Shown piece by piece: positions 27,552 to 29,784 of a DNA stretch of 64,000 nucleotides. Where the stretch lies: the NCBI RefSeq assembly GCF_900093605.1, contig NZ_FLYE01000003.1, positions 62,001 to 126,000 of the forward strand, written 5' to 3'. The stretch comes from Candidatus Terasakiella magnetica. Lineage in GTDB: Bacteria > Pseudomonadota > Alphaproteobacteria > Rhodospirillales > Terasakiellaceae. Position 1 is the first letter of the stretch. Each line of letters opens with the position of its first letter. A program made the translations under genes and the position numbers. The notes below the pieces were generated by a model. That model ran no database searches, had not been told where the DNA came from, and was given only the letters and a program-made list of their open reading frames with translations.

Positions 27552-27712
27552 GCAAATCCCGCATGCCCTTGATAAAAGGGGGCGGGGAGACGCATTTGCG
27601 AAGAAACACAACTAAGCCTTTTGGGTTTAGATGTGCGTGACTCCATTCAAGTAAATGGAGTCTGCATGCACTGCAGAAAAGGGAGGTTCCTTAACGGGAA
27701 CCTCCTTTTTTG
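27552..27712 (+). ncRNA. Structured ilvC 3' UTR, possible small RNA
   Basis: Three hairpins follow the ilvC stop at once. First, GCAAAT (27552-27557) and CCCGC pair with GCGGG and ATTTGC (27594-27599), enclosing CCCTT/AAGGG. Second, GACTCCATT (27639-27647) pairs perfectly with AATGGAGTC (27654-27662). Third is the terminator at 27682-27711. A 160-base segment built like this may be kept as a stable 3'-UTR-derived RNA. That step is inference; the hairpins are directly visible. Confidence 0.45.
27682..27711 (+). terminator. Rho-independent terminator of the ilvIHC operon
   Basis: GGAGGTTCC (27682-27690) pairs perfectly with GGAACCTCC (27697-27705), followed by six T residues. Confidence 0.93.
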
Positions 27713-27841
27713 TTAGGGTGTTTGAGGTACTGGAAAAAGAACATCATAGCCCCAGTTAAAACCAAAAGCCTGCTACAGGTTTGTCTCAAGCCACCAAGCC
27801 ACAAGAAGCAAATAAGGCCCCTTCAAACAAGACAGTATGCA

Positions 27842-27855
27842 CTCTGCGCGCAGAG
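27842..27855. promoter_or_regulatory. 14-bp perfect palindrome upstream of the leuA leader
   Basis: CTCTGCGCGCAGAG reads the same on both strands. It lies in the roughly 260 bases between the ilvC terminator and the leader peptide, where no gene is visible. It could be a regulator site for leuA or chance. TTGACT at about 27909 may be a -35 element but no well-placed -10 is obvious. Confidence 0.35.
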
Positions 27856-27973
27856 CAAGGGTCTCGTGGAAAATCTGGGGTAAGACGCGCGCTTGTGTGA
27901 AAAACAGTTTGACTCTGCGAAATAAATCCCCTTTTATAAAGAGGTAACAAACATTCTTAAGGTTCAGTCGACC

Positions 27974-28096
27974 ATGACTATGATTGAAATCAGCGCTGTA
28001 ACAATGATCGCCGCTTCTTTAAGCGCTGCGGTTGCTTTGCGTGTATATGGTCAAAAACGACTTTCTCTCCTCCTTGCACGACTTACTCGCCCCTGA
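27974..28096 (+). CDS. leuL: Candidate leucine-rich leader peptide of leuA
   Basis: A 40-residue frame (ATG 27974, TGA 28094-28096) ends 128 bases before leuA. AAGG lies about 11 bases before the ATG. Five of the residues 30-37 are Leu (LSLLLARL), encoded by CTT, CTC, CTC, CTT and CTT, close to the stop. The N-terminal part is Ala/Ile/Val/Met-rich. Leader peptides with a run of the end-product codon just before the stop are the hallmark of ribosome-mediated attenuation. Competing stems right after it support this. No homology claim is made. Confidence 0.7.
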   Translation: MTMIEISAVTMIAASLSAAVALRVYGQKRLSLLLARLTRP

Positions 28097-28177
28097 GCGA
28101 AGCAAACTTCTCGTCCATTATTGAAAAAGTGACCTGAAGTGAGCGTTCAGGGGACAAGGCTTGTTGCATTTACAAGC
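28090..28177 (+). promoter_or_regulatory. Candidate leuA attenuator with competing stems
   Basis: Stem 1: 28090-28099 (CCCCTGAGCG, including the leader stop codon) pairs with 28144-28153 (CGTTCAGGGG) over 10 bp with one G-U. Stem 2: CCTGAA (28133-28138) pairs with TTCAGG (28146-28151), sharing bases with stem 1, so they exclude each other. A third hairpin is GCTTGT (28159-28164) with ACAAGC (28172-28177), followed by ATATTTC, only a weak T-run. A ribosome at the leader stop would mask one arm of stem 1 and favour stem 2. Whether the output is transcriptional or translational is open. Confidence 0.6.
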
Positions 28178-28224
28178 ATATTTCACTAATTAATATCCAA
28201 ACATATTTTCTTAGGATGAGAAGA

Positions 28225-29784
28225 ATGACAACCGATTCAAACCGCGTAATTATTTTCGATACCACTTTGCGTGATGGCGAACAAAGCCCCGGCGCTTCCA
28301 TGAATTTGGAAGAAAAGCTGCGTATTGCTGAAACGTTGGAAGAGATGGGCGTTGATGTGATTGAAGCGGGTTTCCCGATTGCATCGGAAGGTGACTTTGA
28401 ATCAGTCAGCGAAATTGCAAAACGTGCAAAAAATTCCTCGATCTGTGGCTTGTCACGTGCTTCACAAGGCGACATTCAGCGTTGCTTTGATGCGGTAAAA
28501 CACGCCCCGATCCATCGTATCCATACCTTCATTTCCACATCTCCATTGCATATGAAATATAAATTGCAAATGGAACCGGATGCGGTTGTGGAAAAAATCA
28601 AAAGCTCCGTCACATTTGCCCGCTCTTTGGTGGAAGATGTGGAATGGTCAGCAGAAGATGGCACACGCACAGACCCCGATTTCTTGTGTCGTTGTGTGGA
28701 AACCGCCATTGCCGCGGGTGCACGCACGATCAATATTCCCGATACGGTGGGCTACACGGTGCCGGAAGAATATTACAAGATGATCGACATGTTGATGAAC
28801 CGCGTGCCAAACATCGATCAGGCCATCATTTCAACCCATTGTCACAATGACTTGGGCTTGGCTGTGGCAAACTCTTTGTCAGCAGTCCAAGCTGGGGCAC
28901 GCCAAGTGGAATGTACCATCAACGGTTTGGGCGAGCGTGCAGGTAACGCCGCCTTAGAAGAAATCGTTATGGCCTTGCGCACGCGCAAAGATTTCATGCC
29001 TTATGAAACAGGCATTAAGTCAGAATTGATCACGCGTGCTTCGCGCATGGTCTCTGCCATTACGGGTTTTTCTGTGCAGCCTAATAAGGCAATTGTGGGT
29101 AAAAACGCCTTTGCCCATGAGTCAGGTATTCACCAAGATGGCATGTTGAAACATGCAGGCACGTACGAAATTATGACGCCTGAAAGCGTTGGACTTGATA
29201 ACGCCAATAAGATCGTCTTGGGTAAACACTCTGGTCGCCATGCCTTTAAAGATAAATTATCTGCATTGGGCTATGAGTTGGGTGATAATGCCTTAAATGA
29301 TGCCTTTAAGCGTTTCAAAGATTTGGCAGATCAGAAAAAAGACGTTTATGACGATGACATTATTGCCTTGGTTGATGATGAGGTCATGCGCGTTAATGAA
29401 CGTGTGAAATTGACCCATTTCCAAGTGACGTGCGGCACCCATGTGAAAAGCCAAATTGCGGCCTTGTCCCTTGAAATTGATGGGGATGAGCGCAAAACCA
29501 TTGCAGAAGGCGATGGGCCCGTTGATGCAGCCTTTAAAGCGATTAAAGAGATCGTGCCGCTGCCAAATGCTCATTTGGAACTGTATCAGGTTCATGCTGT
29601 CACCCAAGGTACCGATGCCCAAGCAGAAGTGACTGTGCGTCTGGAAGAAGAAGGCAAAACGGTTAATGGTCGCGGGGCCGATACCGATACGATGGTAGCC
29701 TCTGTGAATGCTTATTTAAACGCGGTTAACAAATTACTGGTTAAACGTGAAAAGGGTAAGCCTGAAGACGTGGGTAGTATTTAA
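28225..29784 (+). CDS. leuA: 2-isopropylmalate synthase
   Basis: 519 residues from the ATG at 28225 with AGGATGAGAAG upstream; the ATG at 28216 is too close to that site. The DRE-TIM barrel is clear: VIIFDTTLRDGEQSPGASM, HTFISTSPLHMKYKL, and the metal His pair in STHCHNDLGLAVANSLSAVQ. The C-terminal LeuA allosteric domain (from about residue 395, VTCGTHVKSQIAALSLEIDG) is complete, so leucine feedback is expected. It starts the leucine branch from 2-ketoisovalerate. A strong terminator follows. Confidence 0.96.
   Translation: MTTDSNRVIIFDTTLRDGEQSPGASMNLEEKLRIAETLEEMGVDVIEAGFPIASEGDFESVSEIAKRAKNSSICGLSRASQGDIQRCFDAVKHAPIHRIHTFISTSPLHMKYKLQMEPDAVVEKIKSSVTFARSLVEDVEWSAEDGTRTDPDFLCRCVETAIAAGARTINIPDTVGYTVPEEYYKMIDMLMNRVPNIDQAIISTHCHNDLGLAVANSLSAVQAGARQVECTINGLGERAGNAALEEIVMALRTRKDFMPYETGIKSELITRASRMVSAITGFSVQPNKAIVGKNAFAHESGIHQDGMLKHAGTYEIMTPESVGLDNANKIVLGKHSGRHAFKDKLSALGYELGDNALNDAFKRFKDLADQKKDVYDDDIIALVDDEVMRVNERVKLTHFQVTCGTHVKSQIAALSLEIDGDERKTIAEGDGPVDAAFKAIKEIVPLPNAHLELYQVHAVTQGTDAQAEVTVRLEEEGKTVNGRGADTDTMVASVNAYLNAVNKLLVKREKGKPEDVGSI

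Follow-up and report, generated by a model that had tools for sequence, protein, structure and literature searches.

The window, by which we mean the whole 64,000-nucleotide stretch of DNA presented above, carries a short leader frame followed by leuA, the gene for 2-isopropylmalate synthase (Table 1), and 5' of the leader are genes that we take, from their sequences, to be ilvIHC. A stem followed by a run of T after ilvC is a probable intrinsic terminator, and on sequence grounds it probably separates the ilvC transcript from leuA; the promoter and terminator scan placed this stem on the minus strand only, that is, it missed the one on the plus strand. The likely promoter of the leader was not reported by the consensus scan. 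A TTGACA or TTGACT box lies 5' of the leader in all six members of the genus, and the box at 27909, with these counterparts, suggests that leuA has a promoter of its own.

A first-pass annotation of the locus had proposed a 40-codon frame with its own ribosome binding site, five Leu codons among residues 30 to 37, a 10-bp stem (here P2) containing the leader stop codon, and a local 6-bp stem competing with P2. Each of these features is present. The Shine-Dalgarno (SD) sequence of the leader is weak, the Leu codons were confirmed by direct reading (CTT at 28061, CTC at 28067 and 28070, CTT at 28073 and 28082), one of the ten P2 pairs is G-U, and the local stem is as it had been described. The N-terminal half of the leader (27974-28045, TMIAASLSAAVALRVYG) is hydrophobic and has changed little within the genus, which is more than a plain attenuator peptide would need. 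In the hairpin called P3, one U-A pair is replaced by C-G in two genus members and the other pairs are irregular (81% of cells paired). The leuA frame is open from 28216, and we take the start to be probably 28225 because this second ATG is better spaced from the SD AGGA at 28213-28216, which is immediately preceded by a T-rich stretch (ATTTTCTT, 28200-28212). In two genus members a second leuA-like stretch lies a few hundred bases 3' of leuA (L006, G001:C4:37206-38102; L005, G003:C193:4476-5177); the matches are partial, with 72 and 74% identity, and the stretch is perhaps a tandem paralogue.

Table 1. Features of the leader and leuA region, in coordinates of the window.
Feature	Position	Strand	Basis or remark
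Probable intrinsic terminator after ilvC, 9-bp stem and six T	27682..27711	+	read from sequence
Likely promoter, TTGACT, 17 nt, TTTTAT	27909..27937	+	inference
Leader SD, AAGG, weak	27959..27962	+	sequence
Leader ORF, 40 codons, MTMIEISAVTMIAASLSAAVALRVYGQKRLSLLLARLTRP	27974..28096	+	ATG 27974, stop TGA 28094-28096; conserved, dN below dS
Leu codon cluster, residues 30, 32, 33, 34 and 37	28061..28084	+	sequence
Predicted anti-SD strand of base stem, UUCUC 28063-28067 and UCCU 28068-28071	28063..28071	+	fold of 28045-28242; context dependent
P2 5' strand, contains leader stop codon	28090..28099	+	stem finder, covariance model, folding
Predicted hairpin within P2 loop, 28107-28110/28136-28139 and 28113-28115/28131-28133	28107..28139	+	fold; invariant in genus
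Possible second anti-SD in P2 loop, UUCUCGUCC with GGAUGAGAA 28214-28222	28108..28116	+	folds with P2 blocked
Local competitor stem, 28133-28138/28146-28151	28133..28151	+	in 6/6 genus members, not conserved beyond
P2 3' strand	28144..28153	+	stem finder, covariance model, folding
Hairpin P3, 28159-28164/28172-28177	28159..28177	+	fold and genus alignment
leuA SD AGGA (28213-28216) and GAGAA (28218-28222), predicted partner strand of base stem	28213..28222	+	fold
leuA, 2-isopropylmalate synthase	28225..29784	+	start 28225 probable, from SD spacing

Distribution and conservation of the leader

LeuA homologues were taken from relatives and from genome contigs, and 110 leuA loci were examined with a stem finder; 82 of the upstream regions (78 distinct) passed and 28 failed. 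The typical motif is a Leu-rich frame that ends CTT-A..-..C-CCC-TGA within the stem CCCCTGAGCG/CGTTCAGGGG. A covariance model composed of P2 and the 24 nt on its 5' side (R1) has one credible place in the genome of the window; at E<=0.01 it matched 131 of the 385 genomes of Alphaproteobacteria that were scanned. In a sample of the phylum, 78 of 398 genomes had matches at E<=0.001, 75 of them in the class Alphaproteobacteria, and the three outside the class are weak (5.5e-4 to 9.5e-4). R1 underestimates the spread of the element, because two Paracoccus leaders with the same layout score only about 12 bits. Loci were read for 110 of the 131 genomes with a match, of which 109 gave a stem and one (L111) none. 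LeuA is encoded beside 107 of these 109 matches, at more than 60% identity in 104 cases and at 30-31% in three. In L162, L164 and L220 the element stands 5' of a distant gene of the isopropylmalate synthase kind, with 30-31% identity to the LeuA of the window; because the genes that it precedes there are only distantly related, the switch may have moved between enzyme families.

The comparisons below use a non-redundant set of 155 alphaproteobacterial sequences, found either by LeuA homology together with the stem finder or by R1. Thirteen of the 109 R1 matches were excluded manually, in most cases for a mis-set stem finder or a low score (L128, L155, L164, L168, L187, L188, L193, L196, L204, L207, L210, L217 and L218), as were L162 and L220 for a LeuA identity below 50%, L200 for lying too far away and L219 for having no start; 15 near-duplicates were then taken out of the 170 sequences.

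The frame is open over the last 12 codons in 155 of 155 sequences, whereas the other two frames are open in 120 and 68. These codons hold on average 4.89 Leu codons, against 1.65 and 0.28 in the other frames, the last eight being partly selected by construction (R1 holds the last 24 bases) and the earlier ones not. The first-pass annotation had proposed to look for Leu codons in relatives, and its reading that ribosomes sense leucine on this leader is supported by this class-wide conservation of the frame and its Leu run. The leader stop falls within the P2 region in 153 sequences, at the same base as in the window in 146. CTT makes up 46% of the Leu codons in the last 12 codons of the leaders and 5% of those in the leuA stretches examined; it is the last Leu codon in 150 sequences, the other five having CTA. 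The sequence CTTA at positions -8 to -5 before P2 is near invariant (CTT in 150, the A in 149), beyond what coding, or the variable pairing of the leader with the strand before leuA (P1, below), would need.

Among close relatives, where the earlier reading would lead one to expect both frame and Leu cluster, the leader is present in all six genus members. Their dN/dS values range from 0.20 to 0.44 across 15 pairs, every one of which has dN below dS. On the evidence of its sequence the leader is translated, and it has the short translated frame, rich in codons for the amino acid product, that belongs to a classical attenuator. Against the libraries searched, leader peptides gave only matches far below the cut-off (eight peptides against NCBIfam and three against Pfam).

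A different reading is that the stems bind a protein or a ligand and that translation of the leader is incidental. In favour of it, the outer P2 pairs hardly vary and CTTA is more invariant than P1 pairing needs, and Seliverstov et al. (2005, PMC1262725) put forward a binding protein for the LEU element of actinobacteria. However, a frame that is open throughout the set and is the only one rich in Leu, together with the dN values below dS in the genus, makes this reading highly improbable.

The stop-codon hairpin and terminator signals

Over 59 sequences, 92% of the P2 cells are paired, the seven outermost pairs being near invariant and the three inner ones less regular. Its covariation is modest, and because P2 hardly varies, P2 alone can give little. 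In the window the probability of P2 is 0.95 in each of 32 folded segments, and that of the local stem is 0.00-0.01 in free RNA. The local stem (CCUGAA/UUCAGG), which cannot form together with P2, does not vary among the six genus members, but outside the genus it was found in 20 of 149 sequences, against 28.1 expected from shuffled loops, and it was rejected as a conserved terminator for the class. The earlier proposal of an output step made by competition between P2 and the local stem is thus unsupported outside the genus. Compensatory changes in the two stems, which had been suggested as a check, amount to the modest covariation of P2, the local stem being invariant where it is conserved.

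A T-rich tail follows P2 directly in only 7 of the 155 sequences, and in the window no T-run stands directly after either stem. T-rich stretches anywhere between P2 and leuA are above chance, with 20 of 155 against 5.3 expected. They occur in five of the six genus members (the window, L002, L003, L004 and L006), and for this reason the genus of the window may have a terminator. For the class as a whole, the U-run terminator hairpin excluded by an antiterminator, by which a classical attenuator is recognised, was not found. One sequence, L011, has a run of seven T in the P2 loop, inside a small hairpin.

These observations bear on classical ribosome-mediated transcription attenuation, in which P2 would be the antiterminator and the local stem, or some other structure before leuA, the terminator. 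The leader, the Leu codons and P2 all fit such a mechanism, as do the invariance in the genus of a local stem that excludes P2 and the excess of T-rich stretches before leuA, five of the six genus members included. We nevertheless consider it unlikely, as the local stem is found less often than expected beyond the genus and a T-rich stretch right after P2 is so infrequent. The scan listed no plus-strand terminator between the leader and leuA, an absence that counts little, given that the one after ilvC was also missed.

Predicted pairing of the leader with the Shine-Dalgarno of leuA

In the fold of segment 28045-28242, the strand UUCUC-UCCU (28063-28071), which corresponds to codons Leu30, Ser31, Leu32 and Leu33, pairs with AGGA-U-GAGAA (28213-28222) and so encloses P2, its inner hairpin and P3. 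The probability that AGGA pairs with the leader is 0.93 in this segment, against a mean of 0.07 for recoded leaders, of which 2 of 500 reach as high a value; over 32 choices of segment ends it ranges from 0.04 to 0.94. The alternative folds of the window are long-range or local, with a local hairpin that competes for the SD, and the full-length minimum free energy fold for the window lacks the helix between SD and leader. The overall stability of the window leader is unremarkable, since 427 of 500 recoded leaders equal or surpass it. Pairing between leader and SD is favoured in five of the six genus members, with probabilities of 0.56-0.77 over the stretch from SD to start; in L002, of the same genus, it reaches only 0.12.

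Across the class, the leader ends in codons complementary to the strand before leuA, in many species up to and including the SD; in L026, for example, GCCTTCGACTTAGGTG pairs with CACCTGAGTCGAAGGA. The caution in the first-pass annotation that the output step might differ from the enterobacterial model was apt; the conserved partner strand had gone unnoticed there. The duplex between the leader and the strand before leuA has a mean energy of -18.99 kcal/mol, against -14.76 when partners are permuted across species (z -16.7, n=155), and the corresponding z values of the controls are -3.1 for an upstream segment, -0.8 for the P2 loop and +0.8 for the leuA coding sequence. The ratio of exact 6-mer complements to their number under permutation lies between 2.3 and 5.8 at 14 of 15 positions from -19 on and is 1.2 at -11 to -6, a stretch of almost constant sequence. 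The inner part of P1 both varies and covaries; the SD is near invariant and cannot covary. In the best duplexes the fraction of the SD that is paired is 0.50 in real and 0.45 in permuted combinations (n=78), so that permutation was not beaten on this measure. The involvement of the SD itself is therefore carried by controls in which leaders were swapped or recoded.

For the codon control, leader codons were replaced at random by synonyms drawn according to the leuA usage of each species, and six such variants were folded for each. Pairing between SD and leader has a probability of 0.63 in real sequences and 0.28 in recoded ones (n=155), and of 0.43 when the leader is swapped between species. 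With longer flanks (four recodings per species) the values are 0.57 and 0.19, and the probability exceeds 0.5 for 93 of the 155 real leaders and, after recoding, for 14 of 155, the other 62 real ones being at or below 0.5. Two Paracoccus records from outside the set, which are closely related to each other and were the two folded out of four named plasmid records fetched, give 0.98 each, against 0.06 and 0.09 for recoded leaders, 0 of 200 of which are as high. The leader Leu codons of Paracoccus denitrificans match the SD region of leuA over 9 bp. As real leaders pair more than recoded ones, codon choice in these folds appears to favour SD pairing beyond what a run of Leu codons alone gives. 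A test of the third base in CTNCG was clear only for T (19 of 49 with the complement; G, 2 of 29; A, 0 of 11). Taken over the 155 sequences, folding and the codon controls place the downstream SD under the coding region of the leader, as in a translational attenuator.

Ribosome-controlled, Rho-dependent termination between the leader and leuA, with P1 and P2 hiding or exposing a Rho site, would be compatible with the small number of candidate intrinsic terminators and with the length of the stretch from stop to start (median 93 nt). Seliverstov et al., in the part of their paper that deals with terminator-less mycobacterial cysteine leaders, proposed Rho for these (PMC1262725). A codon choice favouring SD pairing is, however, unneeded for Rho control, and we hold this explanation to be improbable. 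Rho may also be triggered secondarily by masking of the SD, or act together with it.

When the leader was covered, as a stand-in for a stalled ribosome, the mean accessibility of the SD rose from 0.27 to 0.51 in folds that simplify the ribosome footprint and co-transcriptional folding; changes larger than 0.1 were increases in 103 of 155 sequences and decreases in 10. With the ribosome placed at the stop codon the SD becomes just as accessible, with a mean of 0.50 against 0.51 for one on the Leu codons. When P2 cannot form, for example because a ribosome occupies the stop codon, loop segment 28108-28116 can take the SD in L001, L003 and L004. In the folds concerned, this segment may hold leuA in the off state while the leader ribosome terminates, which would be no more than a local refinement: a second anti-SD in the P2 loop was dismissed as a general feature, having been seen in three of six genus members.

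Known leaders and a proposed mechanism

The Leu operon attenuator of enterobacteria, presumably the Rfam family Leu_leader (RF00512), likewise has a Leu-codon leader peptide before leuA. In contrast to it, the element described here has no conserved intrinsic terminator and no Rfam match. At the gathering threshold of Rfam release 15 only tRNAs were detected in the window and 26 loci, and no LEU-type match was obtained in these 27 sources; at E up to 10, the region 27700-28300 gave three low-scoring matches of eukaryotic type, which were taken as chance. Translation attenuation of the erm/cat type is a leader-based relative of the mechanism proposed below. The cysteine leaders of mycobacteria are reportedly the subject of Canestrari et al. 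2020. From both of these the present element would differ in that the signal would be leucyl-tRNA and the sensing codons would themselves be the mask. For Gram-negative bacteria, attenuators of branched-chain amino acid genes are said to be covered by Vitreschak et al. 2004, and although full-text searches of the open literature gave no description of an alphaproteobacterial leuA leader, a prior mention is possible, most likely in that work.

In translation attenuation in general, a ribosome stalled in the leader frees a masked SD, according to the cited account (PMC13236596). Leader peptides as a means of controlling branched-chain amino acid genes have been reviewed (PMC6123439), and ilvB leaders are known in the class Alphaproteobacteria from the relevant passage of PMC1273637. 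The Caulobacter ilvBN leader shares this kind of control with the leuA leader and differs from it in having, as described in PMC4117421, a rho-independent terminator. The nearest likeness in layout is the LEU element predicted for actinobacterial leuA, whose run of Leu codons forms a base stem with the leuA SD, with a conserved pseudoknot inside; in the sections concerned with this element, the authors favoured a binding protein and noted that leader mutations of Streptomyces coelicolor leuA were inconsistent with classical attenuation (Seliverstov et al. 2005, PMC1262725). Both elements, so far as the LEU element is set out there, have a Leu-run leader 5' of leuA and a base stem between Leu codons and SD that is not a terminator, and in our sequences folding and the codon controls recover this pairing of the Leu run with the SD. 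They differ in that the alphaproteobacterial base stem encloses the stop-codon hairpin P2 (CCCCTGAGCG/CGTTCAGGGG) and in that the phylum is another. Some alphaproteobacterial leaders end in LLLLSCP and resemble the leuA leader of Streptomyces lividans, MRFGLLLLSCRGEGL, which is without a terminator in the passage that presents it (PMC8079986).

We consider it likely that leuA is widely controlled in Alphaproteobacteria by a translational attenuator that responds to leucine, in which the Leu codons act as anti-SD. The computed support consists of the conserved frame, the Leu run, P2, P1 complementarity beyond permutation and a codon choice that favours SD pairing. The last Leu codons of the leader would double as an anti-Shine-Dalgarno, pairing with the strand before and including the leuA SD to form the base stem P1, and the enclosed stop-codon hairpin P2 would bring the two strands of P1 together. 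With leucine present, ribosomes would clear the leader quickly, P1 and P2 would refold and leuA would be masked; with leucine absent, a ribosome stalled on the Leu codons would cover the anti-SD strand and leave the leuA SD exposed. We infer the stalling on uncharged tRNA-Leu, the direction of the regulation and its translational output. Because a ribosome at the stop codon also opens the SD, the model needs termination to be quick relative to stalling. The interpretation offered by the first-pass annotation is, overall, partly supported.

Leu codons can serve both purposes because CUCCUU is the complement of AAGGAG. More tentatively, and with slightly less than an even chance in our estimation, CUC and CUU codons are sensor and anti-SD at once in Alphaproteobacteria, as predicted in Actinobacteria, an arrangement reached independently or inherited in two phyla, and for a large share of the class they are the principal means by which leucine controls leuA. 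The attenuator proposed here would account for the control of leuA in a large bacterial class that lacks a conserved terminator before this gene, and it would be an amino-acid switch of minimal design, its sensing codons also being the mask. It would also move the question raised by the LEU element, whether translation of the leader is the signal, into testable organisms such as Paracoccus denitrificans.
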